From NCBI RefSeq assembly GCF_000013445.1, contig NC_007796.1, positions 434,001 to 498,000 on the forward strand: a stretch of 64,000 bases of DNA. Reading direction: 5' to 3'. Each line of letters begins with the position of its first letter. Position 1 is the stretch's first letter. This document shows positions 30,735-61,361 of this stretch, one piece after another. A program made the position numbers and the translations under genes. Under the pieces are notes generated by a model. It worked only from the letters and a program-made list of their open reading frames with translations, was not told the DNA's origin and searched no databases. This stretch comes from Methanospirillum hungatei JF-1 (GTDB taxonomy: Archaea > Halobacteriota > Methanomicrobia > Methanomicrobiales > Methanospirillaceae).

Positions 30735-30803
30735 ATTATTATTTAATTATTTTGATATTTCGAAGGGACAGGTTTGCGAGTTATTCATGGGGAGAGTAGG
30801 GAT

Positions 30804-32552
30804 ATGTGTTTAAGGAATGTGATGATTACCACGTTTTTTTGCATCGGTTTGATTACAGGCATCTTTCATGTTTCAGCCCAATTAAGTGATTCAGGTATCT
30901 TTGGAGTTCAAAATATTGGAATACCGCTTATACCTGGTCATTCTGGTTCTGATTATATATTCATTGGTGATTATTCGGATGGGCAGATTCGGATCCTTGC
31001 TCCGGGTTTGTATTACTGCACAGATAATATGAGAACCACATCAGAAGACTATGCAATCCGACTCGAAAATCAGAGCGTTACACTGGATGGAAGTGGCCAC
31101 CAGGTCATGGGTTCTGGAGGATTTTGTGATGGTGTGCAAATCCTGCCAGAGAGTTATCAGTGTATTATTAGAAATTTCAGTCTGATTTCAGATTTTTACC
31201 ATGGTATTTATTCTGAAGGTGAATACGCATTCATACATAATAACACGATCAGAAATGCATCAGCCCATGGTATTCAATCAAGAGGAAATTATTCACAGAT
31301 ACATTTTAATACGGTTGAAGATACTGGTGATGTTTGTATCTTTTCATATGGTGATAATTCATCTTTATATCATAATTATGTCTTTCGGGGGAGGAACGGG
31401 ATATTAAATCATGGAAATCATGCAGATATCTCAAGGAACTATGCTATCAATAATTATCGATATGGGATTGCTGCTGGAGGTGTCTATGTAGGTCCTGATC
31501 CTGGTGATACAGGAAAAGGGTACTATACGATCATGAAGGATAATATTGCCCTCATGAATGGGTATAGTGGATTGATCAGCTACATGCCGCATGGGGTTGT
31601 TCACGACAATATTGCCATTCAGAATTCTCGAGCTGGAATAGATACAACAGCTCGTAGTAATAATACGACTCTTTCAGGAAATATGGTGGTGAACAATTCT
31701 CTCGGTATCAGGATATCTGACCAGGCACGAGACCTCATCGTACGACATAATCGTATCACCGCTCATACACAGGCTGACCTCTTTATTCTTCAGAATAACA
31801 GTTGTGGGTATGGTGCGATATTTGATAATTACTTTGGGAGCCTTGTGCATCTTGATGGAGCAGGGCATATAGAAAATATCACCTGGACAAATCCGAATGG
31901 ACCGACTCCAGGTAAAAACATCATATCAGGACCATTTATTGCAGGTAATTATTGGAGTAATCCTGATGGGAACGGCTGGTCTGATATCCAGGCTCCATCA
32001 GTGACCGGGTATTCGCAGGTTCCCTACGAGGTGAAGTCTGGCCAGGGTGTGTATGATACCGCTCCACTAGTCAGAATCGGTCATAATGTGTCATCTTTTG
32101 CTGATGAATGGACAATTATCCATCCCATTGGAAATATCACCTATCCCCGGTATTCAGATCCATACTATATAACACAGGCAAAACCCGGGGCTGTATTGAA
32201 TAATCTCCGGGTAGATGGATTTTTGAATGCATCGGCTCCTTCTTATACCTTTTCATCTATTGATCAGGATCATATCATAGAAACGAATGGCAGCCCTGAA
32301 CAGGATCAGGTTCATGTCCGGTTTACGTACTCACCCAGTGTTGGGAACTATCCTCTGAAAGTGCAATTTACTGATAATTCAATTGGAAGTCCGAATTCCT
32401 GGTACTGGCAGTTTGGTGATGGCAGTAATTCAACAGAGAAGGATCCGGAACATATATATATGATTCCTGGACGGTATTCGGTTTCACTCAGAGCGTTTAA
32501 TGATATAACTGGGGGTAATTCAGTCTGTAATAATTGTATTACCGTTCTATAG
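30804..32552 (+). CDS. Secreted parallel beta-helix protein with C-terminal PKD module
   Basis: About 582 residues from ATG 30804, chosen over the TTG at 30774. A signal peptide (VMITTFFCIGLITGIFHVSA) is followed by a NosD/right-handed beta-helix region of roughly 300 residues with repeated N-rich turns (HNNTIRNASAHGIQSRGNYS, NHGNHADISRNYAINNY, DNIALMNGYSGLISYM, HNRITAHTQADLFILQ). After residue 430 comes the shared tail: DEWTIIHPIGN, YYITQAKPGAVLNNLRVDG, then a PKD domain (YPLKVQFTDNS, SWYWQFGDG, RYSVSLRAFND) and a CNNCI ending. Surface or carbohydrate-binding/lyase-like protein; no catalytic residues could be assigned. The leader is 60-70 nt after the IS. Confidence 0.85.
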   Translation: MCLRNVMITTFFCIGLITGIFHVSAQLSDSGIFGVQNIGIPLIPGHSGSDYIFIGDYSDGQIRILAPGLYYCTDNMRTTSEDYAIRLENQSVTLDGSGHQVMGSGGFCDGVQILPESYQCIIRNFSLISDFYHGIYSEGEYAFIHNNTIRNASAHGIQSRGNYSQIHFNTVEDTGDVCIFSYGDNSSLYHNYVFRGRNGILNHGNHADISRNYAINNYRYGIAAGGVYVGPDPGDTGKGYYTIMKDNIALMNGYSGLISYMPHGVVHDNIAIQNSRAGIDTTARSNNTTLSGNMVVNNSLGIRISDQARDLIVRHNRITAHTQADLFILQNNSCGYGAIFDNYFGSLVHLDGAGHIENITWTNPNGPTPGKNIISGPFIAGNYWSNPDGNGWSDIQAPSVTGYSQVPYEVKSGQGVYDTAPLVRIGHNVSSFADEWTIIHPIGNITYPRYSDPYYITQAKPGAVLNNLRVDGFLNASAPSYTFSSIDQDHIIETNGSPEQDQVHVRFTYSPSVGNYPLKVQFTDNSIGSPNSWYWQFGDGSNSTEKDPEHIYMIPGRYSVSLRAFNDITGGNSVCNNCITVL

Positions 32553-32728: not shown

Positions 32729-34690
32729 ATGGATGGGCTACATTCAGGACTAATAAAGACAATAATCTGTGTGGGTTTAGTACTCCTTCTGGGAGGGCTC
32801 ATTCCTGTTATGGCTGAAGAACAGCCTGACCTGCATCATAAGATGTTTAATTCAGGAGTAAAAAGTTCGCTCTTTTTGGAAGACAGGGATGTAAATTACT
32901 CCCGAGAGAAGATACCGTCTGAAATGAGTAATTATGGTCCAAGAATGGAAACCCGGCAAGAAAATACTTCACTCTTTTCCACTGCCGGAATCCCGGTTGT
33001 AGAGCGGAACTGGCAGAGATCAGTAGGAGGATCAGATGATGAAGGGATCTGGTCCGTTCTTCATACAAATGATGGGGGATATCTAATTGGAGGGTATACA
33101 TATTCAACAGATGGGGATGTCACTGGAAACCATGGATGGGATGATGCCTGGATTGTGAAACTGGGTCCTGCCGGCAACCTTCTCTGGCAGAAATGTCTGG
33201 GCGGTACTGATTTTGACAGCGCACGTTCTACCATTCAGACTTCTGGTGGCGGATATTTAGTGACCGGATTTACGGATTCAAATGATGGTGATGTCTCCGG
33301 CAATCATGGCTGGTCAGACATGTGGGCTCTGAAAACCGATTCCTCAGGTAATCTGGTTTGGCAGAAATGCCTTGGTGGAACAGATGATGAGAGTTCTCGT
33401 TCGGTCATTGAGACTACTGATGGCGGGTATCTTCTTGCCGGATACACCTGGTCAGATGATGGGGATGTTTCAGGCAATCATGGGTTGTCTGATTATTGGA
33501 TTGTTAAAATCGATAACCTCGGCAATCTGATCTGGCAGAAGTGTTTTGGTGGTTCCGAATACGATCATGCATATTCAGTCATTGAGACATCTGACGGGGG
33601 ATACCTGGTTGCAGGATATTCGTATTCCACTGATGGCGATGTCTCCGAAAATCATGGCAACAGTGATTATTGGGTAATAAAGATTGATAAATCCGGTAAT
33701 CTGATCTGGCAGAAATGTCTGGGTGGTTCGGATTTTGAGTATGCACATTCAGTTATTGAGACATCTGACGGGGGATACCTGATTGCAGGATATTCGTATT
33801 CCAATGACGGCGATGTCTCCGAAAATCATGGCAACAGTGATTATTGGGTAATAAAGATTGATAAATCCGGTAATCTGATCTGGCAGAAGAGTCTAGGTGG
33901 ATCAGATGATGATCATGCATATTCAGTCATTGAGACTTCAGATGGCGGATATCTGCTTGCCGGATATTCCTGGTCAGATGATGGCGATGTCTCTGGAAAT
34001 CACGGATATGCTGACTATTGGGTAGTAAAACTTGATAATTCCGGTAATCTGATCTGGCAGCAATGCCTTGGTGGATCAGACTATGATGGTGCATATAGAG
34101 TAGTTCAAAATACTGATGGCAGATATTTTATTGGAGGTGATTCAGAATCAAATGACGGTGATGTTTCTGGAAATCATGGCTGGAGTGATATCTGGGTTAC
34201 ATTGGTCTCTCCAATGCATTCCATTTCCGCTTCGTCTGATCCTTGGTCGCTTGTCCATCCGTATGGGACAAAATCATATGTTGAAGGAACGAATGCACTG
34301 TATCTGACTCAGGGAAAACCTGGTGCCATCCTTGAAGATGTTCAGGTGGATGAGGTTTCACAGGGGAACATCTCACATTACACCTTTACTGATATCAATG
34401 ATACCCATTCGATTAATACAACTGGAACGCCTGTACCTGGCCAAATTCATGTGATATTTACTATCTCTCCACAATCCGGAAGTGTTCCTCTAACAGTCGA
34501 GTTCAATGATACTTCTATAGGAGGACCTTCATCTTGGTACTGGCAGTTAGGTGATGGAACGAGCTCTCCGTTACAGAATTTGACCCATACCTACACCATT
34601 CCAGGAACATACACGGTCTCTCTCCGGGCTTATAACAGTCAGACCGGTGGATATGGAGTATGTAATGATTGTATCCAGGTAAATTCTTAA
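32729..34690 (+). CDS. Secreted seven-bladed beta-propeller protein with C-terminal PKD module
   Basis: 653 residues, ATG 32729. Signal peptide (LIKTIICVGLVLLLGGLIPV MA), a short polar region, then seven repeats of 58 residues, each built as CLGGSDxD-AYSVIETSDGGYLLAGY-S-DGDVSGNHG-SDYWVVKID-SGNLIWQ. Seven such four-strand units are expected to close as a propeller. The repeats end near residue 495, followed by the shared tail (DPWSLVHPYGTKSYVEGTN, YLTQGKPGAILEDVQVDE, PKD with WYWQLGDG, and CNDCI). No enzyme residues could be assigned; a binding or adhesive surface protein is likely. Confidence 0.88.
   Translation: MDGLHSGLIKTIICVGLVLLLGGLIPVMAEEQPDLHHKMFNSGVKSSLFLEDRDVNYSREKIPSEMSNYGPRMETRQENTSLFSTAGIPVVERNWQRSVGGSDDEGIWSVLHTNDGGYLIGGYTYSTDGDVTGNHGWDDAWIVKLGPAGNLLWQKCLGGTDFDSARSTIQTSGGGYLVTGFTDSNDGDVSGNHGWSDMWALKTDSSGNLVWQKCLGGTDDESSRSVIETTDGGYLLAGYTWSDDGDVSGNHGLSDYWIVKIDNLGNLIWQKCFGGSEYDHAYSVIETSDGGYLVAGYSYSTDGDVSENHGNSDYWVIKIDKSGNLIWQKCLGGSDFEYAHSVIETSDGGYLIAGYSYSNDGDVSENHGNSDYWVIKIDKSGNLIWQKSLGGSDDDHAYSVIETSDGGYLLAGYSWSDDGDVSGNHGYADYWVVKLDNSGNLIWQQCLGGSDYDGAYRVVQNTDGRYFIGGDSESNDGDVSGNHGWSDIWVTLVSPMHSISASSDPWSLVHPYGTKSYVEGTNALYLTQGKPGAILEDVQVDEVSQGNISHYTFTDINDTHSINTTGTPVPGQIHVIFTISPQSGSVPLTVEFNDTSIGGPSSWYWQLGDGTSSPLQNLTHTYTIPGTYTVSLRAYNSQTGGYGVCNDCIQVNS
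33017..34203 (+). repeat. Tandem 174-bp coding repeats (propeller blades)
   Basis: Seven in-frame units of 174 bp. Unit boundaries are visible at the GGCAG(A)A(A)TG(T/C)CT(T/G)GG(T)GG motif near 33189, 33363, 33537, 33711, 33885 and 34059. Units four and five are almost identical over their last third, including the stretch around GGTAATAAAGATTGATAAAT. The high DNA identity points to recent duplication or homogenisation. Confidence 0.9.
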
Positions 34691-36708: not shown

Positions 36709-39700
36709 ATGATGGGGAATTTTTTCAAACTTAAAAACATTTTATTGGTACTTTTTGTACTTATTAGCATAACATTATCCTGTTATGGGGAAGAAAATGC
36801 GGCAGATGTTCCTGTGGCATCATCAGCTCCAATTAATCCAGAATACCTGAAGTATTTGGAAAGGGTTAATGCTTTAAATGAGACCGGTGAATTTGCACTT
36901 GGCTATGAACCTCCGGTGATTTCATTTGATCATCTGATTGGGAAACGTCCCTTTGATTCAAATGTTCAGGATTTGTATCCTTCATCGTATGATCTCAGAA
37001 CCTTTGATAAATTAACACCAATTAAAAATCAGAATCCCTGGGGTACCTGCTGGGCATTTGGATCACTTGCATCACTTGAGTCTTCACTGAAACCAAATCA
37101 GACTTACGATTTTTCTGAAAAACATGTAGTCAATCGCAATCTCTGGCTCACTGGTCCTAATACCGGAGGGAATTATCTTAAATCCGGAGGTTATCTTGTC
37201 GCCTGGATGGGGCCGGTGAATGAGACGACCGACCCGTATCCTGTTGACACATGGAATTATACTTCCCCTTCAGGTCCTATAACGAAACATGTTCAGGAAA
37301 TTTACTGGATTCCAGGTATGGCTAACGCTTCAGATCTGGAGACAATTAAGAGTTCAATTGTAAACAATGGTGCTTTGATTAGTTCGTTTTACTGGAATCC
37401 CGCGTCGTATAATTTCACCCATAAATCATATTACTGTCCGACATGTTCAGGTTCCAACCATTGTATTAATCTGGTAGGTTGGGATGATAATTACAACAGG
37501 AATAATTTCACCACTCCTGCGCCTGGTGATGGTGCATTTCTGCTTAGAAACAGTTGGGGTACCAGCTGGGGTGATCAGGGATATGGATGGATATCGTATC
37601 ATGATCCGACAATTGGGAAATACAATGCCCATATCTTTGGTTCGGATGTGAATGATTATTCGGGTATTTATCAGTATGATCCTGCTGGGACTTCATCGTA
37701 TATTGGCATTCCCTCAACAAGCATCTGGGGCGGAAATATTTTTACTGCGACGGCAGATGAAAACCTTACCGCAGTTGGTTTTTATACAAATGATGTCTCT
37801 GCTACCTACGATGTTCGTGTTTATAAAAATCCAACAGCAGGAGGGCCAGTTGGTTCGACCATTCTTTCACAGAAGACTGGGACAATACCGATGAGTGGGT
37901 ATCATACAATTAGTCTTGATACACCAGTTTTCCTTTCCGTTGGTGATATCTTTTCAATTGTTGTTCACTTGACAAATCCAAGTTATGGATATCCACTTGC
38001 AGTCGAGAATCCTGCTTCTGGGCCTATTGGTAATACATGGTCTGCAAATCCGGGTGAAGGATATGTCAGTTCAGATGGAAATTCCTGGACTGATATAGTA
38101 ACAATTCCTGGTTTTGTAAATACCAGCATATGCATTAAGGGGTATACCAATACTATAACACCTCCTCCTGTAGCCAATTTCACCTCGAATGTGACAACAG
38201 GTCTTGTTCCTCTTACTGTCCAGTTCACCGATACGTCAACAGGCAGTCCCACGTCCTGGCTATGGAACTTTGGTGAAGGAAATACTTCATCAAGCCAGAA
38301 TCCGGTTCACACGTATACCACTGCAGGTTTGTATACCGTAAACCTGACTGCTTCGAATGCCGGTGGTTCAGATACAAGAGTTGCACCAGGTTATATCAAT
38401 GTAACAAATCCGGTCCCATTGCCTCCTGTTGCCAGCTTTACCTCAAACGTCACATCTGGAGACATCCCCCTCTGTGTCCAGTTTAATGATACATCTACCG
38501 GAAATCCAACGTCGTTTTACTGGACATTTGGAGATGGTGCAAATACTACAATCCGAAACCCGATTCATACCTATGAAACACCCGGCCTGTATACCGTAAC
38601 CCTCTCCGTCGCAAACTCTGCTGGCTCTAACCTGACGTCAAAAGCGGGTTATATTAATGCAACATCTCCTCTTCCGAATCCATTCGTGACAGGTATCTAT
38701 CCGAATTTTACAAAGGCTGGAATGAATGTAGGATTTAATCTTACTGGTAATTATTTCAGTGAAGGCTCGATAGTCAACCTTACCATGAGTGGTTATAGTA
38801 ATATCACTACATTTGGTAATCTGTCAGGAAGCAATCTGACTGGATTTTTTGATATTCCATCTGGTACTGCAACAGGGATGTGGAATGTCAGTGTGAACCG
38901 CTTTGGTCAGTATAGTAATGATAATGTTCAGTTTCAAGTGCTGCCACCCGTTCCTCCGGTAGCAAGTTTCATTGGAATTCCACGTACTGGTGTGGCCCCG
39001 CTGTTTGTTCAGTTTGCTGATACATCCACTGGCGGTCCGACATCATGGAGCTGGAGTTTTGGCGATGGTGGTCTTTCTACCGATCAGCATCCAAGTCACA
39101 CATATTCTGGAGCTGGTCTGTATACGGTGAGTCTGAATGTCTCGAACAGTGGCGGTTCCAATGTTACGACTGCTCCTGGTTATATCAACGTGACAAGTTC
39201 TGTTGTTCCACCTGTAGCGAGTTTTACTGGCAGTCCCCGTAGCGGTGTTGCCCCGTTATCGGTTCAATTTACTGATACATCCACTGGCGGACCAACCAAC
39301 TGGACCTGGAGTTTTGGCGACGGTGGTCTTTCTACCGATCAGCATCCAAGCCACACATATTCCGGAGCTGGTCTGTATACGGTGAGTCTGAATGTCTCGA
39401 ACAGTGGCGGTTCCAATGTTACGACTGCTCCTGGTTATATCAACGTGTCAAGTTCTGTTGTTCCACCTGTAGCGAGTTTTACTGGCAGTCCCCGTAGCGG
39501 TGTTGCCCCATTATCGGTTCAGTTCACAGATTCCTCAACTGGTAATCCTACTACATGGAACTGGAACTTTGGCGATGGGCTTTCATCTACGATGCAACAC
39601 CCAATGCACACCTATGCAGGACCAGGGCAGTTTACCGTCAATCTAACCGTATCGAATACAGCAGGAACTGACACCCTCACAGCACCAGATTATATTTCGG

Positions 39701-40419
39701 TTTCTGGACCTCCCTCACATTATTCAATTAACGCAAGTTCCGGACCAAACGGGCGAATAGATCCCTCAGGGTTAATAATTATCCCTGCCGGTGGAAATCA
39801 GAGATTTTCCATGATTTCGGATACCGGTTATCAGGTCGGTGATGTTCTTGTTGATCAGGCAAGTGTTGGGCCAGTCGGATGGTATGAATTCAGGAATATC
39901 AGTACTAATCATACCATTTCGGTCAATTTCGAGAGAATACCTGGACAGAAATTAGTGAATGCTTCGGCAAACCGTTGGAGTATCGTGTATCCTCCAGGTA
40001 TTTCAGCATACCAGGAAGGAACGAATTGTACATATATTACTCAGGCAAAACCGGGGGCAGAAATGAAACAGATTTTAATTGATTCAGTCGAACAGAATCT
40101 TTCAGAATTCTGGACATTTACAAATATTTCTGATGATCATAATATCTACACATATAGCGAACCAATACCTGATCAGATCCATGTATTCTTCAGAGGGGCA
40201 CCTTCAACTGGATCAGCTCCTCTGGGCGTGCAGTTTATTGATGAATCCATTGGTACCCCTACGTCCTGGCTCTGGCAATTTGGCGATGGTGAAAAATCAT
40301 ACGATCAAAATCCATATCATGAGTACCAGTCACCTGGAATTTACACCGTAACACTTCGTGCATATAATGGAAAGACCGGGGGGTATGGTGTATGGAGCGA
40401 TGGGGTAATCGTCAAATAA
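36709..40419 (+). CDS. Secreted papain-family (C1) peptidase with lectin-like and PKD domains
   Basis: 1236 residues; ATG 36709 with GGGGGAG about 8 nt upstream. Signal peptide (ILLVLFVLISITLSCYG). Peptidase C1A domain: IKNQNPWGTCWAFGSLASLE with nucleophile Cys114, SGSNHCINLVGWDDNY with His251, FLLRNSWGTSWGDQGYGW with Asn281. Next a lectin-like C1-associated domain (GIYQYDPAGTSSY, FLSVGDIFSIVVHL). Then five PKD-like domains, an IPT/filamin-like stretch at 38670-38940, a beta domain around 39718-39940 (SINASSGPNGRIDPSG) and the shared tail with a final PKD. All catalytic residues are present, so an active extracellular protease is likely. Many N-x-S/T sites are present. Confidence 0.92.
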   Translation: MMGNFFKLKNILLVLFVLISITLSCYGEENAADVPVASSAPINPEYLKYLERVNALNETGEFALGYEPPVISFDHLIGKRPFDSNVQDLYPSSYDLRTFDKLTPIKNQNPWGTCWAFGSLASLESSLKPNQTYDFSEKHVVNRNLWLTGPNTGGNYLKSGGYLVAWMGPVNETTDPYPVDTWNYTSPSGPITKHVQEIYWIPGMANASDLETIKSSIVNNGALISSFYWNPASYNFTHKSYYCPTCSGSNHCINLVGWDDNYNRNNFTTPAPGDGAFLLRNSWGTSWGDQGYGWISYHDPTIGKYNAHIFGSDVNDYSGIYQYDPAGTSSYIGIPSTSIWGGNIFTATADENLTAVGFYTNDVSATYDVRVYKNPTAGGPVGSTILSQKTGTIPMSGYHTISLDTPVFLSVGDIFSIVVHLTNPSYGYPLAVENPASGPIGNTWSANPGEGYVSSDGNSWTDIVTIPGFVNTSICIKGYTNTITPPPVANFTSNVTTGLVPLTVQFTDTSTGSPTSWLWNFGEGNTSSSQNPVHTYTTAGLYTVNLTASNAGGSDTRVAPGYINVTNPVPLPPVASFTSNVTSGDIPLCVQFNDTSTGNPTSFYWTFGDGANTTIRNPIHTYETPGLYTVTLSVANSAGSNLTSKAGYINATSPLPNPFVTGIYPNFTKAGMNVGFNLTGNYFSEGSIVNLTMSGYSNITTFGNLSGSNLTGFFDIPSGTATGMWNVSVNRFGQYSNDNVQFQVLPPVPPVASFIGIPRTGVAPLFVQFADTSTGGPTSWSWSFGDGGLSTDQHPSHTYSGAGLYTVSLNVSNSGGSNVTTAPGYINVTSSVVPPVASFTGSPRSGVAPLSVQFTDTSTGGPTNWTWSFGDGGLSTDQHPSHTYSGAGLYTVSLNVSNSGGSNVTTAPGYINVSSSVVPPVASFTGSPRSGVAPLSVQFTDSSTGNPTTWNWNFGDGLSSTMQHPMHTYAGPGQFTVNLTVSNTAGTDTLTAPDYISVSGPPSHYSINASSGPNGRIDPSGLIIIPAGGNQRFSMISDTGYQVGDVLVDQASVGPVGWYEFRNISTNHTISVNFERIPGQKLVNASANRWSIVYPPGISAYQEGTNCTYITQAKPGAEMKQILIDSVEQNLSEFWTFTNISDDHNIYTYSEPIPDQIHVFFRGAPSTGSAPLGVQFIDESIGTPTSWLWQFGDGEKSYDQNPYHEYQSPGIYTVTLRAYNGKTGGYGVWSDGVIVK
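38951..39715 (+). repeat. Tandem 255-bp PKD-encoding repeats (three units)
   Basis: Three in-frame units of 255 bp (85 codons) begin at TTCC(T/A)CC(G/T)GTAGC positions 38951, 39206 and 39461. The second half of unit one and unit two are nearly identical, and units two and three share an identical first 60 bp (CCCCGTAGCGGTGTTGCCCC). This shows recent homogenisation of coding repeats. Confidence 0.9.
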
Positions 40420-40799: not shown

Positions 40800-43658
40800 A
40801 TGATAGAGAGTAACATCGAAAAAATATTTTCCAAGACCTATTTGGTAAAATGGTTAGTATGTCTTCTAACCTTTTTAATGTCTTTAGTTTTGGTCCAACC
40901 TGGGACAGCACTATTGTACCCGTCTTTTTATGGGATGAACCAGGCAAATATGACTCTGGTTGTATCAGATAATTTCTCTCAGGATAATCTGGCATATGGA
41001 GATTTTTTATATCTGTTTGATACCACGACTGCAAGTGCCGGTGATTCAGTTAATACGAGACATTGGAATATTACGGTAACAGAACCAACTGCATATAGTG
41101 GATCACGTGATTCATATATTCCAAATCCAGTATTCGGTCCGTTTTTAAATGAAACTTCGATTATTGTAAATCTTACGTTAACAAACGCCACATCTGTCAG
41201 TTATAATGGAACTGATGTGTACCAGGTTATAGATGGTAGGAAATGGATTAGACCATCATATTCGGTAACCGCTGATTTCCGAAACAAAACAGCAACTAAT
41301 CCGATAGGGACAATCCGGTTTAATGACACTTCTGAAGAACTCCTGTTTCCGATGGCAGAGATCACCGATTGGTGGTGGAAGGTAACCGATAATTCTGGTG
41401 TACCACAAAACACGTCAGGTTGGGATAATTTTACAGTCAATATGACTGATACCGATTATTATCAGGTAAATCTGACCGTGAGGAATAGTCAGGGGAATCT
41501 TGCCTCCTTATCTGGGTATACTGGAGCTCCAGAGGATGGAAATGGTCTTATTGCTAATTTTGCTGCAGTACCTGTTGCTGGAACTGCTCCCTTAAATGTG
41601 AGTTTTATTGATCTTTCATCTGGGGAAATAACAAGTTGGGATTGGGATTTTGATTTCCTCGGTATTGATTCCACGAATTTACATAGTTCATATAATCAGA
41701 ATCCCACTCATACCTATAAGAAACCAGGGATTTATTCTGTTAATCTCACAATTTATGAGGGTTCGAACAGTAAATCTTGTCTAGCTGGAGACATGATCAC
41801 GGTTTATCCTCCTCCGGTTTACCTGGCTGTAGCTCCAACAAAAGGTGAGAAGCCATTGAATGTTACGGTTATTTCACGGTCCTATGGGCTGAATGCATCA
41901 CCAATATATGAATGGGACTTCGGAAATGGAATGGTAGTTAATACCACAACACCTTCGTACGTGTATACCTATAATCCGGGTGGTGTGAATCCATCTCAAT
42001 CATGGAATTATACTATTCGTCACACCGTGTATTCTGACGGGGTTGCGTATCCTGCGCAAAATACCCAGAATGTAACTATTGAAACACCTGCTCCACCCAG
42101 GGCACGATTTGCAGCGGTTCCACAATCTGGACCAGCCCCGCTGAAAGTATCTTTTGTTGATCAGTCTGAAGGGAAAGAACCATTTGATTATATCTGGAAT
42201 TTCGACGATGGAAAACCGAATGTGTATGATGTTCAGAATCCTACGGTAACTTTTGAGACGCCGAAAGTCTACAATGTTACGTTATACTTTAATGCATCAA
42301 ATGGTGCTGATCAGGCGTATGTTCTAGTGAATGTTACTGAACCTGTTCCTCCAGTCATTGATTTCGCCGTCGCGCCGACAAAGGGTTATAACCCTCTGAA
42401 TGTGACGGTGATATCTCAGTGCAGCGGTCTGAATGAATCCCCTGTTTTTGAGTGGGACTTTGGTAATGGAACAAAAAGGACGACTACTGATTTATCATAT
42501 GTGTATCAGTACAAGCCATATAGTCCAAATCCGAATATGGTGTGGGAATATCCGATAAATCTTACGGTTTACTCGGATGGGCTGATTTACTATGCATCGA
42601 AAAGCAGAAATGTGACTGTGGAAAATGCACCAACTCCAAAAGCTGCATTTAATGCTTATCCCCGAATCGGGTCGAGACCTCTTGAGGTTTCATTCTTTGA
42701 TCAGTCAATTGGACAGGAACCTATCAATTATGAGTGGTATTTTGGAGATAATACTCCAAAGGTATTTGAGCAGAACCCGGTTCATGTGTACAATGAAACT
42801 GGAGAATTTAATGTTACTTTGATGATTCATGCGAAGAATGGGAATGACATAATTAATCAAACTGGTTTAATCCGCGTGACAGATTATCCGATTCCTAATG
42901 TATCATTTAGTATGGCTCCTGTGAGTGGATACGCGCCCTTGAAAGTATCCTTCATTGATCAGACTTGTAAACAGGACTGTTCATATGAATATTTCTGGCA
43001 GTTTGGTGAAGGAAATACTTCTACGAAAAGGAATCCGGTCTGGGAATATGTGACGCCTGGTAATTATTCTGTAAATCTTACTGTGACGGATAAGTATGGA
43101 GTCAGTGGAAAAGGAAATGGTCTGGTGAATGTTACAGTCATGCAGCCTTCTGGTGGGGATGATGGGCAGTTAGTTGCGAATTTTACTGCATTATCCACAA
43201 GAGGAGTAGCACCTTTTGAGGCTCATTTTATTGACCAGTCAAGTGGCAATCCAAAAGGTTGGAGATGGGATTTTAGTGATAAAAATGTTTCATTTGATCA
43301 AAGTCCAAATCACACTTTTTTCAAACCTGGAATATACAACGTTACCTTAGAGGTATATAATAAGACATCGTATTCATCAAATATTACAAAACTTGATTAT
43401 ATTACTGCAATATCTCCCATAATTGATGCATGGTTTTCATTTCGATATATTGGTGATCAATCAACCCGCCTTGTTCAATTTTTTGATGGTTCAAAAGGAG
43501 TTGGAATAAATAGCTGGGAATGGACATTTGGGGATGGAACTACTTCAACAGAGATCAACCCTGTTCATTTATATAGTTCGAAAGGAATTTACAATGTAAA
43601 ATTGCTAGTATCCAATGGATATGCTAAGGATATTTTTGAGTATGTAGTTTACATTTAA
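40800..43658 (+). CDS. Large secreted multi-PKD surface protein
   Basis: 952 residues; ATG 40800 with a GGTGGGG-type ribosome site. Signal region LVCLLTFLMSLVLVQPGTAL. A unique N-terminal domain of about 230 residues (YGDFLYLFDTTTASAGDSV, RHWNITVTEPTAYSG, WIRPSYSVTADF), then about eight PKD domains (WDWDF, YIWNFDDG, WYFGDN, FWQFGEG, WRWDFSD, WEWTFGDG). A 540-bp block coding a PKD pair is present twice (about 41816-42355 and 42356-42892). No C-terminal anchor was seen. The N-terminal part resembles methanogen S-layer or sarcinarray-type N-termini; I did not recognise a named family with certainty. Dense N-glycosylation sites. Confidence 0.8.
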   Translation: MIESNIEKIFSKTYLVKWLVCLLTFLMSLVLVQPGTALLYPSFYGMNQANMTLVVSDNFSQDNLAYGDFLYLFDTTTASAGDSVNTRHWNITVTEPTAYSGSRDSYIPNPVFGPFLNETSIIVNLTLTNATSVSYNGTDVYQVIDGRKWIRPSYSVTADFRNKTATNPIGTIRFNDTSEELLFPMAEITDWWWKVTDNSGVPQNTSGWDNFTVNMTDTDYYQVNLTVRNSQGNLASLSGYTGAPEDGNGLIANFAAVPVAGTAPLNVSFIDLSSGEITSWDWDFDFLGIDSTNLHSSYNQNPTHTYKKPGIYSVNLTIYEGSNSKSCLAGDMITVYPPPVYLAVAPTKGEKPLNVTVISRSYGLNASPIYEWDFGNGMVVNTTTPSYVYTYNPGGVNPSQSWNYTIRHTVYSDGVAYPAQNTQNVTIETPAPPRARFAAVPQSGPAPLKVSFVDQSEGKEPFDYIWNFDDGKPNVYDVQNPTVTFETPKVYNVTLYFNASNGADQAYVLVNVTEPVPPVIDFAVAPTKGYNPLNVTVISQCSGLNESPVFEWDFGNGTKRTTTDLSYVYQYKPYSPNPNMVWEYPINLTVYSDGLIYYASKSRNVTVENAPTPKAAFNAYPRIGSRPLEVSFFDQSIGQEPINYEWYFGDNTPKVFEQNPVHVYNETGEFNVTLMIHAKNGNDIINQTGLIRVTDYPIPNVSFSMAPVSGYAPLKVSFIDQTCKQDCSYEYFWQFGEGNTSTKRNPVWEYVTPGNYSVNLTVTDKYGVSGKGNGLVNVTVMQPSGGDDGQLVANFTALSTRGVAPFEAHFIDQSSGNPKGWRWDFSDKNVSFDQSPNHTFFKPGIYNVTLEVYNKTSYSSNITKLDYITAISPIIDAWFSFRYIGDQSTRLVQFFDGSKGVGINSWEWTFGDGTTSTEINPVHLYSSKGIYNVKLLVSNGYAKDIFEYVVYI

Positions 43659-43805
43659 TAATCCTTTTTGCATCTTTTTTGATTATTGCTACAGAGGAAA
43701 TTTAGTTAAATTTATATATTATTTTTTATATAGCATAATCTATTGATTGTTTGGTTTTTGTGGTCTGACCATGATCAAACATATTCATTGGGGGAGCAAT
43801 TCAAA

Positions 43806-46595
43806 ATGATTGAAAAAACATTTGAATTTCAGGAAAGAAATTCTAAACTACAAAATCGATGGGGTTTTGGTATTGTTGTACTGATGTGTTCTGTACTTTG
43901 TTTAATCATTTTTTCTAATATTGTATCAGCTGAAATGACAATCAGTGGTCCTGATTCGGTTAAGCGGGGGAATGATTCTTTTACGGTTATTGTTAATGAA
44001 ACAGTTCGGCCATCAGAATCATATTATTTTGGTTTGATCATTAATCCTCAAACAATGACTGGTGATGTATGCGATAGACCTCCCTACATTATTGATGATT
44101 TTATTTATTCAAAAATACCAGGTCAGGCATGGGATGCATATTATGAGCCGGAACAGGATAAAGGAGAAAAATTTTATGAATTATCTCCCAATAATCTCTC
44201 GTACCCATCAAATAGCACATGCTGGGATGTTCCATGGAATGGTACGCATTATATGGTAGAATTATGGGCTGATCAATACAATACCGGAGATTGGTATTTA
44301 ACACCAGATGGAATATGGCACCATGATATAAATATTGGCTTAAGATATCCGGATTTTTCAACCTCCGTGAAACCCGGTGAATATACTTTTCATGTTCAAA
44401 AAGCATCAGCTCATCGTAAACCAAATCTGCCAAAACCAGTAAGTCCAGTTCGGAAAATTGATTTTGAGGATTATAAGGTAAATATTGTTGTTGGTGGTTT
44501 TGACTTTTCTTTTTATGATTATTCGGCATATTATAGTATACCACCTGAATTGATACCCGTTAACTCAGCTGGTAAAGGTGAAAAAGTTATATTGAATGGA
44601 ACAAATTTTGATAGCGATGCTATTTATCTTTGGATTACTGGTGAAGGCTTACCGAAATGTGGAACGTCATTAAAGGTTAATAATTTACCCGTAAATTCTA
44701 ATGACCCTCTTATTGTAGGCTTCACTGATCGAAAGAATGGGACTTGGGAATATAAATGGGATATTTCTGAAACAATTCTTGAGCCTGGCAAATATACGAT
44801 ATATGCATCGACAATTAATCCCGATGATCTAGTAACAGAATTTTTCAATCGTCCAAATGAATGTGGATCAATTTGTAAAACACGAGAAGAAGGTGTTTGT
44901 GCATTACTGGATTGTCCTACCTGCACCTGTTTGGCACCAATTATCAAAAAAGATTTTACAATTACTGAATTAACAACGAATATTAATTCAATTGATAAGG
45001 TTGAACCCTGTTGTTGCCCTGGTTACCCATGTGGGTTTACGTCATCTTTGGTCAATATTACATTAAGTGGTATATTTGGTGATTCACGAACTCCCATGCA
45101 GATTTGGATGTTTGGTAATAATCAAATATATGATAAGAATTATCTATTTACTGATAATTTCACGACCTTCCTGGATGCAGATGGAAGCTTCCAATTAGAT
45201 ATTTATGAGTATTTATTAAAGCCAAATGGGTTAGATTTATGTGATTTGGATAATGGAGAGTATTATTTACTTGTTCAACTACCCGGACAAACAAACCAGT
45301 CAAAACAAGTTTTTGATGTTACATTAGAAAATTCAACATTTTATAAAAAAATCTCCACTTTAGAGCCGAATACATTTTTAATGTCTAACCTCACAAAAGA
45401 CAATCTGTATGTTGTAAAGTCAGATCCATTTTTCTGGACAAAGGCATTTCCAGTTTTAGGTCCGAATTCATATACTGGTAAACGAGCCTTTGATAAATTA
45501 ACAACCCTTTTAGATGAGGCATGGGTCAGGGACCGATATGTGACAACATCATTCTTCCTAGAACCTATCCGTTGTAAACAAGATGCTTTAAGCTTCATTG
45601 CTACCCCGCAGGAAGGCTATGTTCCATTAACGGTTCAATTTACAGATCAATCAACCTTTAATGGGACCGCTTATTCTTGGGATTTTGGAGATGGTTTAAC
45701 ATCTACAGAGAAAAACCCTCAACACATTTATAATAAATCTGGAATTTATGATGTTACATTAACAATTGAGGGTACAGGGACAGACGGAAAGCAGAAGAAT
45801 CCGTTAAGGAAATACAATTATATTATTGTACGGGACATTCCTGCAAAATATTATGATCCAGTTGCAGACTTTACCATATCCAAGGTTGCAAATGAACCAT
45901 TCAGTATTCAGTTCATCGATCAGAGTTATGGTGCAACCCCGCTGACAAGTATCTGGGACTTTGGGGATAACTCAACATCTGGAGAGAAGAGTCCAAAACA
46001 CCAGTATGCATCTGCTGGAACATATACTGTTAATCTGACAGTAAAGGATCAGTATGACAAAGAATCAACCAAGACTCAGGACATCCTTGTCCCATCGGTC
46101 AGTCCTCCGGTTCCTGACTTTGAATTTACTATAAACCCCAATCAGATGAAACAGGTGCAGTTTACTGACAAATCCCAAGGAGAGATCACCTCATGGAAAT
46201 GGACCTTTGGTGACGGTCTGGGCTCATCAATACAAAGCCCTGAACACCTGTATACCACGTATGGAACATTTTCAGTCACTCTGACGGTTGGAAATAATGC
46301 CGGTTCACAGTCATTCACAAAGGAAATCACACTGATCGATCCAAAGGTCTCTGCAGACTTTTCATGGGAAGATATTGGTGAGAGAACCGTGAGGTTTTTG
46401 GACAATTCGAAGGGGCTCATCACCGAGTGGACTCTTGAGTATGGCGATGGCAAAGTCGACCAGTTCACAGAAGCATGGGATGAAGTCGAGCATACCTACT
46501 CTCAACTCGGCAGATATTATGCGAAATTGACTGTTAAAAATGATTATAATAAAGATTCTGTTACAAAACAGATCGATGTTCTCAAACGGCAATAA
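43806..46595 (+). CDS. Secreted surface protein with cysteine-rich cassette and PKD domains
   Basis: About 929 residues from ATG 43806, preferred over 43743 because GGGGGAGC lies 9 nt upstream. Membrane-type signal (FGIVVLMCSVLCLIIFSNIV SA). It then has TISGPDSVKRGNDSFTVIVN, MTGDVCDRPP, a tall beta region, ANPDD-type turns and the cassette VCALLDCPTCTCL and EPCCCPGYPCGFT shared with the next three genes. The last 310 residues are four PKD-type domains (YSWDFGDG, SIWDFGDN, WKWTFGDG, and a degenerate TLEYGDG). The 5' two-thirds are AT-rich; the last 750 bp are much richer in G+C. It lacks the DUF3821 N-terminal domain of the next gene. Confidence 0.82.
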   Translation: MIEKTFEFQERNSKLQNRWGFGIVVLMCSVLCLIIFSNIVSAEMTISGPDSVKRGNDSFTVIVNETVRPSESYYFGLIINPQTMTGDVCDRPPYIIDDFIYSKIPGQAWDAYYEPEQDKGEKFYELSPNNLSYPSNSTCWDVPWNGTHYMVELWADQYNTGDWYLTPDGIWHHDINIGLRYPDFSTSVKPGEYTFHVQKASAHRKPNLPKPVSPVRKIDFEDYKVNIVVGGFDFSFYDYSAYYSIPPELIPVNSAGKGEKVILNGTNFDSDAIYLWITGEGLPKCGTSLKVNNLPVNSNDPLIVGFTDRKNGTWEYKWDISETILEPGKYTIYASTINPDDLVTEFFNRPNECGSICKTREEGVCALLDCPTCTCLAPIIKKDFTITELTTNINSIDKVEPCCCPGYPCGFTSSLVNITLSGIFGDSRTPMQIWMFGNNQIYDKNYLFTDNFTTFLDADGSFQLDIYEYLLKPNGLDLCDLDNGEYYLLVQLPGQTNQSKQVFDVTLENSTFYKKISTLEPNTFLMSNLTKDNLYVVKSDPFFWTKAFPVLGPNSYTGKRAFDKLTTLLDEAWVRDRYVTTSFFLEPIRCKQDALSFIATPQEGYVPLTVQFTDQSTFNGTAYSWDFGDGLTSTEKNPQHIYNKSGIYDVTLTIEGTGTDGKQKNPLRKYNYIIVRDIPAKYYDPVADFTISKVANEPFSIQFIDQSYGATPLTSIWDFGDNSTSGEKSPKHQYASAGTYTVNLTVKDQYDKESTKTQDILVPSVSPPVPDFEFTINPNQMKQVQFTDKSQGEITSWKWTFGDGLGSSIQSPEHLYTTYGTFSVTLTVGNNAGSQSFTKEITLIDPKVSADFSWEDIGERTVRFLDNSKGLITEWTLEYGDGKVDQFTEAWDEVEHTYSQLGRYYAKLTVKNDYNKDSVTKQIDVLKRQ

Positions 46596-46849
46596 ATATC
46601 TTTACAATCTCTCTTTTTCTCTTTTAAAAAAGTGATAATCTTTTTTTTTCTTCAGTATTAAAAAAGAATAATAGAAATATTTATATTCTTCATTAAATAT
46701 ATGATGTATATTATCACAGAATGGGGGCTATTGAGCAATCAATTTGGTGAGATGGAGGAAGCGACGACAAATCTGATTTGAATTTTTTCAATCGGTATTG
46801 GCGGTCATTTCTTTCAGGTTAGAGAAATCTCATGGATGGAGTGGTGTTG
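46596..46849. promoter_or_regulatory. Promoter and long leader of the DUF3821 surface-protein gene
   Basis: T-rich termination-like runs (TCTCTTTTTCTCTTTT, CTTTTTTTTTC) follow the previous gene. A TATA-like element ATATTTATATTC near 46676-46687 is followed by about 150 nt of leader that becomes GC-richer and contains GGGGGCT and GGAGGAAGCGACGAC. A ribosome site GGAGTGGTG precedes the ATG at 46850. A long leader is unusual for archaea with many leaderless mRNAs and may carry structure. Confidence 0.5.
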
Positions 46850-49800
46850 ATGAAAAAAGACAAATTAATCGATTTTAAGAAAGGTCTGTTCGCACTCATG
46901 GTGCTCTGTGGTATAGGCATTCTCCTTATACCGCAAGTATCGGCCGCAGGGATTAATATTAATGTTCCGATTGTAGAACAGAATACCACGGTTTTCATTG
47001 GTGAAGAAGGGCTTGATATATCAAATGCGCTGATAGATCCAAACACTGGAAACCCGGTATATCTCCTCGGATGGTGGGGGGATGATGTTGAATCTGGTGG
47101 ACATACATCAGCAGATAAATATATCACGATCGCTCCGGGGAGTGTGACCAACTATTATGTCAACCCGACTGAGTATATGATGAATAATCGATACACAGAG
47201 GGTTCTTTTTATATCTGTGATGAGACTACTGGTCAGGCTATTTATTATAATGGATACCCTGTTGTCGCTTTTTATGTAGAGTTACCTCATCTTGAACTCG
47301 TTCCGGCTGATGATGTATGTCCTGATGTAAACCGGACCGGGCAGGTCTTCCTTGGAACAAATCTGAACTTTAACATTAAGACCAACCTGTACAAGATTCA
47401 GAACAGGCCTGGAGGTCAGAACAGCGCGATATTTGATATCAATGTCATCGGACCGAATGGAAAGGATTACAACTACCTCCTCGGTCCTGATGCCGGAGGG
47501 TGTAACTGTCCGGATTGTAATCCGAATTATCCGGCAATAGGTATCAAGGATATCAATATTCTGACCAACAAGCATCAGTGGCAGACTTGGGATACCGATG
47601 CAATCGATCCACAAACCGGTCTTTTGTATTCACCTCAGGGAACATATGCCATATCGGCAACCTGCTGGGCAAATCACATATTAGACAATTACGTAACAAT
47701 AGGTGGGGCAAAATCAGCCACAACAAATCTGGAACTGGTTGTAGAGACCGTGAGTGTTACGGTAAATCCTGGGACCATTCTAAGAACCGAAACGGCAACT
47801 GCCACGGTGACGGGGAAACCACAGACTGAGTACATCATCGCTCTCATGGAATGTCCTCTTAAGATGACCGGTGAGATCTGTGACCGCCCGCCATGGTTTG
47901 AGAATGATCCACTTAATGTTGCGTTGCAGTTTGATCCTGAAGGCGGTCCATATACCATAGGAAAAGAAATTGTCTATCCGTCCTGTTGTGATGGGCTAAC
48001 CTTCAGAGATGTCGTGCCAAAGGTATACCATGACGGTGTGCTCTATTATGCAAGTATTACCACTGACTGTCTTGGAAAAGCAACGATAGACATCAAAGTG
48101 GATAATACGGTCTGGAAAGCGGATAATAACCCTGTATATACGATCCATGTTCAGAAACGTGCTCCCGAATGTAATGGAATTCACCTGTTTGCGGAGACTG
48201 AATTAACTGTTAAAAAGGGTGATATTTCCATCCAGATCTCACAGGCATCAGATACAACAAATGCACCCATCACTGAGGCATATCTTGGTGATACCCTCAA
48301 GATCGCTGGATCAAATACCGACAGTCTGAGAACCTATCTGTACATGACCGGTCCATGTCAGCCTGAATGTGGTGGAGGCCTGATACCGATTCCATATCCA
48401 CATGGACCAATTGGAGATGGACCTGAAGTCATTGATGTAAGTCTTCCACCCATCGAAGGATTTGACTGGATATTTACCAACAATGATGCCACTGGAAAGC
48501 CACGGTACTGGGAGACCAGATACCTGCCTATGAATCCAGGGACCTATACCATATGGGCGATTAGTAACTGGCCGCCAAACTGTCCAAATTGTCTTGATTG
48601 CGGTGGTCATCCGTGCTTTACAAACCCGGAGACTTGTCCTGGATGTGATGGAAAGGTATGTTCACTCCTTGATTGCCCGAACTGTGATGTGTATGCCGTT
48701 GCAACTATCGAACTGAAGGCTCCTGAACTTACCGCGATTACTGAGGATATTGAGCGGTGCTGTTGCTCAGGATATCCCTGTGGAACCACCATCGATAGTC
48801 ATCCTATCAACGTTAGTGGAGTTTCAACCGGAAATCCGAAGAAAGAGCTGAATGTCTGGCTCTTTGGCAAAGGAAAGATCGGCGACGAGAAGTTCATGAA
48901 CATAAAAGTGCCTGTCAATTGTGACGGGACGTTTGTATTTGATGTGGTGAAAGATATTCTCGGATATTATGGTATTCCATTGTGCAGAATAGATTCAGGT
49001 ACCTATGATCTGATCATTCAGGATGCAGGATATAATCATCAGTATGATGTCATCTATGAGGATGATCTTGATCCTTCAATATGGGCCAGACCTGTGGAAG
49101 TGAACAAAAAATGGATCATCATGGGTCATCCAGACATCGGTCCGGTAGAGAATTATTCAGAGATTAATCCTGGAGAACAAAATCCAAATGAAGATTTCCT
49201 TACTCATGTGGATACAACAACTTTAGTTGTTCCCGATCCAGACTCCCAGAAGTTCTACGACGACGACTGGCGTAAACTCGTCCAGGTAGAAGGACCGGGG
49301 TACAAGCTCGGAACTGAAGTCCTCTATGCTCTCATCAAGGGCCTTGACGATCCAAGCGTTGACGACAACTATGTCCACATCCAGTTCACCGTCACAGACA
49401 AATCCTGTCTGGTTGGAACTGACTTTGATGCAGATCGGACTTACGGAAACAAACCGCTGACCGTCCGGTTCACTGACAAGAGTTACAATGCAACATCATG
49501 GCTCTGGAACTTTGGAGATGGAACAACCTCCACTGAACAGAACCCAACACACACCTTCACTGAAGAAGGCCGGTATACAATCAGCCTTACCACCAATGGT
49601 GATGAGAAGGGTAAAGCAGTAAAGAACGATTACATCCGGGTAGCAAAAGGCCCGACTGCAAAGTTCGCCTTTGCACCAAAAGATGTAACGGTAGGAACTG
49701 AAGTTCAGTTCACTGACCTCTCGTCAGGTAACCCGACCTCCTGGATGTGGCACTTTGGTGATGGTTCATCCTCACCACTCCAGAGTCCGGTGTATACCTA

Positions 49801-50137
49801 CATGGCCCCTGGTGTGTATACTGTCATGCTCACGGTGAGTGATGAAACCGGAATCAGTGGTGACTCTGCAACCCAGACCATCACAGTCCAGGGTTCATCA
49901 ACCCCGGTCGTTGCGGATTTCAAAACCGAAGTAACCAATGGAACCAATGTCCAGTTCACTGACCTCTCTTCAGGTTTTGGCATAACAAGCTGGGTCTGGG
50001 ACTTTGGTGATGGATCGACCTCAACTGAGAGAAATCCGAAGCATACCTACCTTAAGGAAGGAACCTATCAGGTCTCTCTCACCGTCTCGAATGGCAGCTA
50101 TGAAAACACTGCCAAAAAACCCATTGGAATTCGTTAA
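46850..50137 (+). CDS. DUF3821-type surface protein with cysteine-rich cassette and PKD domains
   Basis: About 1095 residues. Start ATG 46850 follows GGAGTGGTGTTG. Signal peptide (GLFALMVLCGIGILLIPQVS AA). DUF3821-type N-terminal domain: QNTTVFIGEEGLDISNAL, YLLGWWGDD, VNPTEYMMNNRYTEGSFYIC, then FLGTNLNFNIKTNLY. Middle: CNCPDCNPNYP, MTGEICDRPPWF, VYHDGVLYYA and the cassette VCSLLDCPNCD / CCCSGYPCG. The C-terminal 250 residues are three PKD domains (LWNFGDG, MWHFGDG, VWDFGDG). Codon use is biased to GC-ending codons in the last third. It is probably an abundant cell-envelope protein. No C-terminal membrane helix or PGF-CTERM was seen. Confidence 0.85.
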   Translation: MKKDKLIDFKKGLFALMVLCGIGILLIPQVSAAGININVPIVEQNTTVFIGEEGLDISNALIDPNTGNPVYLLGWWGDDVESGGHTSADKYITIAPGSVTNYYVNPTEYMMNNRYTEGSFYICDETTGQAIYYNGYPVVAFYVELPHLELVPADDVCPDVNRTGQVFLGTNLNFNIKTNLYKIQNRPGGQNSAIFDINVIGPNGKDYNYLLGPDAGGCNCPDCNPNYPAIGIKDINILTNKHQWQTWDTDAIDPQTGLLYSPQGTYAISATCWANHILDNYVTIGGAKSATTNLELVVETVSVTVNPGTILRTETATATVTGKPQTEYIIALMECPLKMTGEICDRPPWFENDPLNVALQFDPEGGPYTIGKEIVYPSCCDGLTFRDVVPKVYHDGVLYYASITTDCLGKATIDIKVDNTVWKADNNPVYTIHVQKRAPECNGIHLFAETELTVKKGDISIQISQASDTTNAPITEAYLGDTLKIAGSNTDSLRTYLYMTGPCQPECGGGLIPIPYPHGPIGDGPEVIDVSLPPIEGFDWIFTNNDATGKPRYWETRYLPMNPGTYTIWAISNWPPNCPNCLDCGGHPCFTNPETCPGCDGKVCSLLDCPNCDVYAVATIELKAPELTAITEDIERCCCSGYPCGTTIDSHPINVSGVSTGNPKKELNVWLFGKGKIGDEKFMNIKVPVNCDGTFVFDVVKDILGYYGIPLCRIDSGTYDLIIQDAGYNHQYDVIYEDDLDPSIWARPVEVNKKWIIMGHPDIGPVENYSEINPGEQNPNEDFLTHVDTTTLVVPDPDSQKFYDDDWRKLVQVEGPGYKLGTEVLYALIKGLDDPSVDDNYVHIQFTVTDKSCLVGTDFDADRTYGNKPLTVRFTDKSYNATSWLWNFGDGTTSTEQNPTHTFTEEGRYTISLTTNGDEKGKAVKNDYIRVAKGPTAKFAFAPKDVTVGTEVQFTDLSSGNPTSWMWHFGDGSSSPLQSPVYTYMAPGVYTVMLTVSDETGISGDSATQTITVQGSSTPVVADFKTEVTNGTNVQFTDLSSGFGITSWVWDFGDGSTSTERNPKHTYLKEGTYQVSLTVSNGSYENTAKKPIGIR

Positions 50138-50664
50138 TCGATCCTCATTTCTTTTTTACTTTTATTTTTATACTATCCGCAATTTCTCATCATGTGGCAC
50201 CTCTGAAAATAAGAGCAAATTAAGAATATTTCAAAGCCCCTTATTTCCGCGGCATACATGCATCAGAGCGATCTGAAAAACCTGAAAGATAATAGTACCT
50301 TTCCGAATTAAAATCATCAGTGAATTTTTCTCTTTGAAATCACAAGGAAAGCATTCGTGATTTTTCGATTTATCTACATATATTGGAAAAAATATATATC
50401 ATCTTGTGAAATATCTTCGATGCAGTTTTCGATGCTTCAATGTGTAATATAAATAGGATATATTTCGAAAAACCTTATTTTTGAGATACTTATGGAAATA
50501 TTTATATTAGAAATAATATATAGGATTTTTATTATCTACGTATGGGAGTTGAATACGCCACAGAAGCTACCATGGGGTGTGATAGACAGATCGGTGAGTG
50601 CCATACCTGTATCATTCTGGTACGGGGATGATATGAGATCTGCCTGAACGTGGGGTGTTTTCAG
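50138..50664. promoter_or_regulatory. Terminator, promoter and long leader between two DUF3821-type genes
   Basis: 527 bp. A T-rich run (TTTCTTTTTTACTTTTATTTTT, 50150-50171) after the stop suggests termination. A second promoter-like region, GGAAATATTTATATTAGAAA at about 50492-50511, is followed by roughly 140 nt of leader rich in G (ATGGGAGTTG, CATGGGGTGTG, GTACGGGGATG) before the ATG at 50665. The leader has several short inverted repeats but no recognised riboswitch. Confidence 0.5.
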
Positions 50665-54543: not shown

Positions 54544-54544
54544 G

Positions 54545-60732: not shown

Positions 60733-61302
60733 ATGACAATCAAGTGTACCATCTGGATGCCGGTTCTTCTCATTGCCGGCATGTGTATCGCTGTATGCGG
60801 ACTGGTATCCGCTGCATCACCCCAGCTTCCGTGTGAATTTTATGGAACTGCTACAATCGGGGGCTCCCCGGTTCCGGCTGGAACGGTCATTACTGCATAC
60901 GTGAACGGAACCCCGCAAGGAAGGATCACTGTAACCGAAGCAGGCAAATTTGGTGGAACCGGAACATTTGATGAACGGCTCATTGTTATGGCCGGGGAAA
61001 AAGATTTTGCAAACGGGGTTCCGACCATAACGTTCAAGATCAATGAACAGAATGCCGATCAGTCTGCACCATACCAGCCAGGAGCAAGTACCCAGCTGAA
61101 TCTTTCCGTCGCTGGACAGGCAGCAGTTCCTGCGCCGGTAGAGCCAGTCACACAATCAAATAATTCAACTCAGGTGCCGGTCATTGTAGCCCAGGTTCCG
61201 GTCCAGGTACAGACTCCTGCACCAACTCCGGTTATAACACCGGTGCAGAACCAAAGTTCACAGGCTGTTCAGCCGGCATGTGTCTCTGCTCCTGCTCAGT
61301 AA
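60733..61302 (+). CDS. Small secreted protein with one FYG-type domain and Pro/Gln tail
   Basis: 189 residues. Signal (WMPVLLIAGMCIAVCGLVSA), then one FYG-type domain closely matching domain 1 of the preceding gene: PCEFYGTATIGGSPVPAGT, EAGKFGGTGTFDERL, ITFKINEQNA and YQPGASTQLNLSVAG. The last 60 residues are rich in Pro, Val, Gln and Thr (PVQVQTPAPTPVITPVQNQ), a cell-wall-spacer-like composition. It looks like a minimal version of the previous gene, probably made by partial duplication. A ribosome site is not obvious. Confidence 0.78.
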   Translation: MTIKCTIWMPVLLIAGMCIAVCGLVSAASPQLPCEFYGTATIGGSPVPAGTVITAYVNGTPQGRITVTEAGKFGGTGTFDERLIVMAGEKDFANGVPTITFKINEQNADQSAPYQPGASTQLNLSVAGQAAVPAPVEPVTQSNNSTQVPVIVAQVPVQVQTPAPTPVITPVQNQSSQAVQPACVSAPAQ

Positions 61303-61304
61303 TC

Positions 61305-61335
61305 CCTATTTCTTCATTTTTATTTTTTTTATATC
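61305..61335 (+). terminator. T-rich transcription termination region
   Basis: The stop of the small secreted protein gene is followed by ATTTCTTCATTTTTATTTTTTT, the kind of U-rich run at which archaeal RNA polymerase terminates. It ends the surface-protein cluster before the toxin-antitoxin locus. Confidence 0.5.
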
Positions 61336-61361
61336 GATATCATTTTGAATATGATAATCAA

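Follow-up and report, generated by a model that had tools for sequence, protein, structure and literature searches.

A papain-like protease gene among surface-protein genes of Methanospirillum hungatei JF-1, with a possible role in coat processing

The protease gene and its cluster

The archaeon Methanospirillum hungatei JF-1 carries, on the plus strand of a 64,000-nucleotide stretch of its genome (NC_007796.1, positions 434,001 to 498,000; hereafter the window, whose numbering is used below), an open reading frame (ORF) at 36709-40419 that begins with ATG, reads cleanly and encodes 1236 amino acid residues. An earlier reading made from the sequence alone had described the product as an apparently active, secreted papain-like protease with Cys114, His251 and Asn281 and a lectin-like and PKD tail. 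Here we report a computational analysis of the gene, its relatives and its neighbours, in which the protein is found closest to Cwp84 of Clostridioides difficile and encoded among genes for S-layer paralogs.

A residue check placed the catalytic set at Gln108, Cys114, His251 and Asn281. Pfam gave matches well above chance level, namely Peptidase_C1 (PF00112) at residues 91-297 (E 8.1e-21; 75.5 bits, cut-off 20.7), the Lectin_like domain PF18560 directly after it at residues 320-480 (E 1.7e-48, 165.2 bits against a cut-off of 27) and, behind the latter, six PKD stretches, part of which is encoded by DNA repeated in tandem at 38950-39575 (unit of 255 bp, 2.5 copies, 87% matches). The residues and the lectin-like domain named in the sequence-only reading were thus recovered; its description of the tail was incomplete, as the six PKD stretches are followed at residues ~1081-1236 by a module common to two neighbouring proteins. 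Hydrophobic 19-residue windows scoring above 1.6 start at residues 1-11 and none lies near the C-terminus, consistent with a protein that is secreted and not membrane-anchored. The parts of the gene are as follows.

36709..36783, + strand: signal-like N-terminus, residues 1-25 (hydrophobic windows; cleavage site assumed)
36784..36978, + strand: propeptide-like segment, residues 26-90 (aligns with Cwp84, in sequence from residue 39 and in structure from residue 30, model residue 6)
36979..37599, + strand: papain (Peptidase_C1) catalytic domain, residues 91-297 (Pfam, residue check, conservation, model)
37030, 37048, 37459 and 37549, + strand: catalytic codons of Gln108, Cys114, His251 and Asn281, respectively
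37666..38148, + strand: Lectin_like PF18560, residues 320-480 (Pfam; whole-genome scan)
38164..39708, + strand: PKD array and other stretches, residues 486-1000 (Pfam PKD_4 / PKD)
39949..40416, + strand: C-terminal module, residues 1081-1236, the last part a PKD-like domain (identity to two upstream neighbours)

The protease gene is followed downstream by six PKD genes of the same strand, and DUF3821 occurs in three of these. An AAA-ATPase_like gene is found directly upstream on the opposite strand, and ~6 kb upstream there is an IS1182-like transposase that scores under its NCBIfam cut-off. The neighbours with surface-protein features are listed here.

30774..32552, + strand: NosD/beta-helix and PKD protein with the same C-terminal module, upstream (Pfam; tail alignment)
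32729..34690, + strand: PKD protein with the same C-terminal module, upstream (Pfam; beta-propeller resemblance below NCBIfam cut-off)
40800..43658, + strand: PKD protein, downstream neighbour (Pfam)
43743..46595, + strand: PKD protein (Pfam)
46832..50137, + strand: DUF3821 and PKD protein, S-layer paralog by domain (Pfam)
50650..54543, + strand: DUF3821 and PKD protein, probably Mhun_0424
54530..58240, + strand: DUF3821 and PKD protein with ~95 extra N-terminal residues, probably Mhun_0425

Two further features of the window were recorded. The combination of AAA-ATPase_like and PDDEXK_9 occurs in two genes, 20346-22064 and 34725-36461, the latter set immediately before the protease, amid the genes for surface proteins. 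A nucleotidyltransferase gene (61278-61823) and a HepT-like gene (61823-62248) are adjacent, and we take the two to resemble an MNT-HepT toxin-antitoxin pair.

The M. hungatei S-layer protein Mhun_2263 contains a DUF3821 domain, and the S-layer paralogs Mhun_0424 and Mhun_0425 were detected in enriched sheath preparations, the latter having an N-terminal extension of ~100 residues, according to the available text of PMC11641113. DUF3821 begins at residue 143 in ORF 54530-58240 but at 48-50 in the other two DUF3821 proteins; this extension fits Mhun_0425, and ORFs 50650 and 54530 are therefore probably Mhun_0424 and Mhun_0425. The possible plug proteins discussed in the accessible part of a sheath study (PMC6242892) include PKD proteins.

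The shared C-terminal module is about 155 residues long and strongest in Methanospirillum. Its window copies lie at 39949-40416, 34214-34687 and 32079-32549, the protease copy being 51% and 43% identical to those of the two upstream surface proteins. An 84-residue probe of the module found three places in the M. hungatei genome at E 1e-5, all in the window cluster; at the same threshold it matched 21 of the 108 genomes of the family, with at most 12 places in one related genome, and at E 1e-10 or better it matched seven of the twelve Methanospirillum genomes searched, JF-1 included. A longer query of 236 residues gave weaker alignments (29-31% identity) overlapping the module elsewhere in the genome, which were absent with the 84-residue probe. 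Folding of residues 1001-1236 from three window sequences gave an unusable model, with a predicted local distance difference test score (pLDDT) of 37.3. As far as the sequences go, the shared tail suggests a common place on the cell surface for the three proteins, where it may act in sorting, in anchoring or simply as a spacer.

Likeness to Cwp84 and conservation of the catalytic residues

Among proteins of solved structure the best sequence match was Cwp84 (E 2.6e-37 over residues 39-482). Residues 25-482 were modelled with AlphaFold from an alignment of 81 sequences (pLDDT 93.9; predicted template modelling score 0.93), and both Foldseek and VIA-align 2 ranked Cwp84 first for this model, with Z 41.5, a root-mean-square deviation of 2.7 and 29% identity over 426 aligned residues, against Z 26.9 for the next best entry. 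Papain and cathepsins K, S and L share the C1A fold (Z ~25-27 to the model) but are without the lectin-like domain. The protease and lectin-like domains fall in a single alignment to PDB entry 4ci7, which begins at model residue 6, within the segment that would match the Cwp84 propeptide passing over the lectin-like domain and along the groove. The predicted fold would reproduce propeptide, C1A protease and lectin-like domain in the order and form seen in Cwp84 (4ci7, 4d59), with Gln, Cys and His aligned. Differences from Cwp84 are the PKD array and genus-type tail, and Asn281 within an NSWG motif where Cwp84 has Ser. The available text of the Cwp84 paper (PMC4089489) describes the propeptide as unlike those of other papain proteases and already notes the architecture in archaea; hence the architecture is a known one, archaea included.

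The relatives used are a sample of the family, with the loci limited per search. For residue conservation we used 137 aligned rows, which include the window protein and some identical genes from two sources, and a subset designated A1, made up of the window protein and 45 relatives from the class. A1 was drawn from 58 rows, one being the window gene; 45 of the other 57 were taken and 12 were left out, namely 11 further copies, all with the four residues kept, and L001, a row lacking the lectin-like domain. All 46 A1 rows carry the Gln, Cys, His and Asn without exception, and all four are kept in 134 of the 137 rows; the patterns of the related-locus search held the motifs around His251 and Asn281, which favours both residues in its 80 rows, and did not hold Cys114 or Gln108. 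The exceptions are L121 with Gly for Cys, L137 with Ser for Asn, and L152 with Leu and Thr, the last being a misalignment whose motif lies elsewhere in the fragment. L121, from a Thermodesulfovibrio metagenome-assembled genome, is possibly an inactive member.

Since the catalytic residues are kept across relatives, the enzyme of 36709-40419 is likely to be active. Absence of these residues in homologues had been named by the sequence-only reading as the finding that would speak against it, and their retention in nearly all rows was what we found; a pseudo-enzyme, judged by sequence, was ruled out on the same ground. The description as an apparently active secreted protease stands for the secreted type and the conserved residues, with activity itself a prediction. 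The triad and oxyanion Gln in papain order, the sequence profile and the predicted fold all agree with papain family C1A.

In the lectin-like domain, Glu448 of the Cwp84 calcium site corresponds to Glu433 (Glu in 45 of 46 A1 rows) and Asn487 to Ser473 (Asn in 40 of 46 A1 rows), the positions being matched by eye. Cys475 of the same domain (codon 38131-38133) is present in all 46 A1 rows and in 74 of the 81 A2 rows; the aligned Cwp84 residue, also judged by eye, is not Cys.

Distribution of the protease type and of the protease slot

The family is widespread. PF18560 was found in 100 of the 232 genomes of the class, in 67 of the 135 good-quality ones and in 27 of 40 genera, and the M. hungatei genome has four papain-domain loci and two PF18560 loci. 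The related-locus search returned at least 584 stretches, 80 of which were kept, methanogens and bacteria among them; the relatives range over Clostridia, Elusimicrobiota, Aminicenantes, Acidobacteriota, Methanosarcina and Methanobacteriaceae. In the available texts, the papain family is reported from all major archaeal lineages (PMC10380794) and papain-family domains from adhesin-like proteins of two gut methanogens (PMC11532034). The earlier view that such an enzyme is unexpected in an organism living on H2/CO2 or formate is thus not upheld; a surprise for a methanogen is ruled out by these numbers, and the protein, taken by itself, does not stand out within this widespread family. A literature search on methanogen extracellular papain proteases and on the M. 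hungatei S-layer with the term 'proteolytic', judged by titles and the starts of abstracts, found no paper on the window protease.

Elsewhere in the genome, two neighbouring open frames of 1087 and 1105 codons lie at ~3,410.8-3,417.6 kb (G000:C1; L071:1284-4544:- and L071:4836-8150:-). Both combine a subtilisin-type prodomain, a papain domain, PEGA repeats, a subtilisin domain and a PKD domain, and both have, by pattern, the papain Gln/Cys, His and Asn motifs as well as the subtilisin Asp and Ser motifs, the papain set lying between the subtilisin prodomain and the subtilisin catalytic domain. A limited search of the literature found nothing on this papain-within-subtilisin arrangement.

DUF3821 genes like those of the window cluster lie together in six other genomes examined (G207, G201, G208, G203, G200 and G130), with different genes further upstream in G208 and G203. 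A protease in the slot was seen in G207 alone, ahead of a gene like ORF 40800, and this protease (L059, L060:5060-8314:+) is the sister of the window protease (value 100) in a tree of the 137 rows built with FastTree only. The two share slot and type of C-terminal module; they are 46% identical over the aligned region, and the G207 protein has two PKD_4 stretches against six in the window protein. In G200 and G208 a related protease occurs elsewhere in the genome and stands next to the window/G207 pair in the tree.

The second PF18560 locus of M. hungatei, a paralog at G000:C1:746845-750150 (L066:1846-5151:-), has the same succession of C1, Lectin_like and PKD domains. It differs in its NosD and PKD tail, is 36% identical over the shared region and belongs to a separate clade present in several Methanospirillum genomes and G130. 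This paralog (746.8-750.2 kb) lies ~7 kb from a short DUF3821 gene. Proximity of lectin-like loci to DUF3821 hits was measured in the 11 single-contig genomes among 30, with related genomes counted separately, rounded lengths for seven, and weak partial hits left out (one lectin-like hit each in G088 and G120, two DUF3821 hits in G207). In the three closed Methanospirillum genomes each of the four lectin-like loci has a DUF3821 hit no more than 10 kb away, against a random mean of 0.18; for the JF-1 genome alone the count is two of two (p 0.013).

Coat processing and its alternatives

The explanation that we put forward, at about an even chance of being right, is a coat-associated processing protease of Cwp84-like architecture acting on the coat proteins of its cluster. 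The protein would be exported and its propeptide then removed, and it would be held at the surface by the PKD array and the C-terminal module common to the two upstream neighbours. Cys114 and His251 would cut coat proteins, with Asn281 orienting the His and Gln108 in the oxyanion hole. The substrate is a guess, the most likely candidates being one or more products of the same cluster, either PKD or DUF3821 S-layer-paralog proteins, and the outcome would be maturation, remodelling or turnover of coat proteins between S-layer and sheath. Cwp84 is itself a cell-surface S-layer maturation protease that cuts precursor SlpA, and its Cys116Ala form was inactive on SlpA in a co-expression assay, as given in the available text of PMC4089489. 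The earlier suggestion that the enzyme might process the surface coat fits both this likeness and the position among S-layer-paralog genes, although cutting and substrate are conjectural.

Several results weigh against this explanation. The acidic S2 residues of Cwp84, Asp318 and Asp320, align in sequence with Tyr305 and Ala307 of the window protein (position 305 is highly variable across rows and 307 mostly Ala or Val), so that SlpA-type specificity is not transferable and the cleavage specificity, to judge from the aligned residues, probably differs. No CWB2 (PF04122) domain was found in the window protein at E 0.01 with Pfam; with the S2 difference, this rules out a simple Cwp84 ortholog. 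The catalytic part had no match in the 15.6-20 kb cluster stretches of G201, G208, G203, G200 and G130, and because five of the six related clusters are without the protease in the stretches examined, it is an accessory gene of the cluster. None of the 20 lectin-like loci in the eight closed genomes of other genera comes within 10 kb of DUF3821, which rules out that the protease type generally travels with this domain; across all eleven closed genomes the count is 4 of 24 (p 0.012 at 10 kb, 0.055 at 20 kb). Of the loci in draft Methanospirillum genomes, one of the two of G208 lies within 10 kb of DUF3821, that of G203 at ~15 kb and that of G200 at ~74 kb. The Methanospirillum cases are two neighbourhoods in one lineage, one per paralog clade, and make no general rule. 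The sheath itself resists proteases according to the available text of PMC6242892. The gene mapping is indirect as well: counting back from Mhun_0424/0425, we infer the protease to be Mhun_0420. Mhun_0419, 0420 and 0421 do not occur in the accessible part of PMC11641113, the one paper found in a search with five locus tags.

Some of these results can be read in favour of other functions. Secreted papain enzymes are often digestive, and a general extracellular protease that supplies amino acids or peptides by breaking down foreign proteins or those of dead cells would agree with the loss of the acidic S2 pair, by which a broad specificity is possible, and with family loci lying away from DUF3821 in other genera. 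We consider such scavenging unlikely in M. hungatei, which lives on H2/CO2 or formate and whose amino-acid pathways are complete except for a gap in histidine, according to the available text of the genome paper (PMC4704411); the tail common to neighbours and the place in a coat cluster also argue for a fixed surface position. To much the same low degree we credit a role in competition or adhesion, in which the surface protease would act on the proteins of partner or rival microbes and be gained and lost as an accessory gene. The patchy presence in the cluster, the long branches between members, the relatives across several bacterial phyla and methanogens, and the AAA-ATPase_like gene and transposase upstream speak for it, yet Pfam recognised neither a known immunity gene nor a component for effector delivery in the neighbours scanned. 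A catalytically silent binding protein with the papain domain as scaffold is very improbable, given that all four catalytic residues are present and so widely kept, even though activity is a prediction and L121 shows that silent members may arise.

Coat processing also has a more specific form, which we hold to be rather improbable as it stands: a lineage-specific maturation protease for the Methanospirillum S-layer-to-sheath linker system, whose substrates would be either the sheath-associated S-layer paralogs encoded beside it in the cluster or those surface proteins that share its C-terminal module. If true, Cwp84-SlpA processing would have an archaeal counterpart in this enzyme, which would help to remodel or loosen the coat while the sheath grows or chains separate. 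The S-layer biogenesis pathway of M. hungatei is stated to be unknown in the available text of PMC11641113, and a protease of the S-layer-maturing type among S-layer paralogs offers a definite enzyme to consider, and one for which an inhibitor class (E-64) is known. The enzyme type was already known; what is new is its context, the PKD/DUF3821 cluster and the shared tail, which makes coat processing testable.

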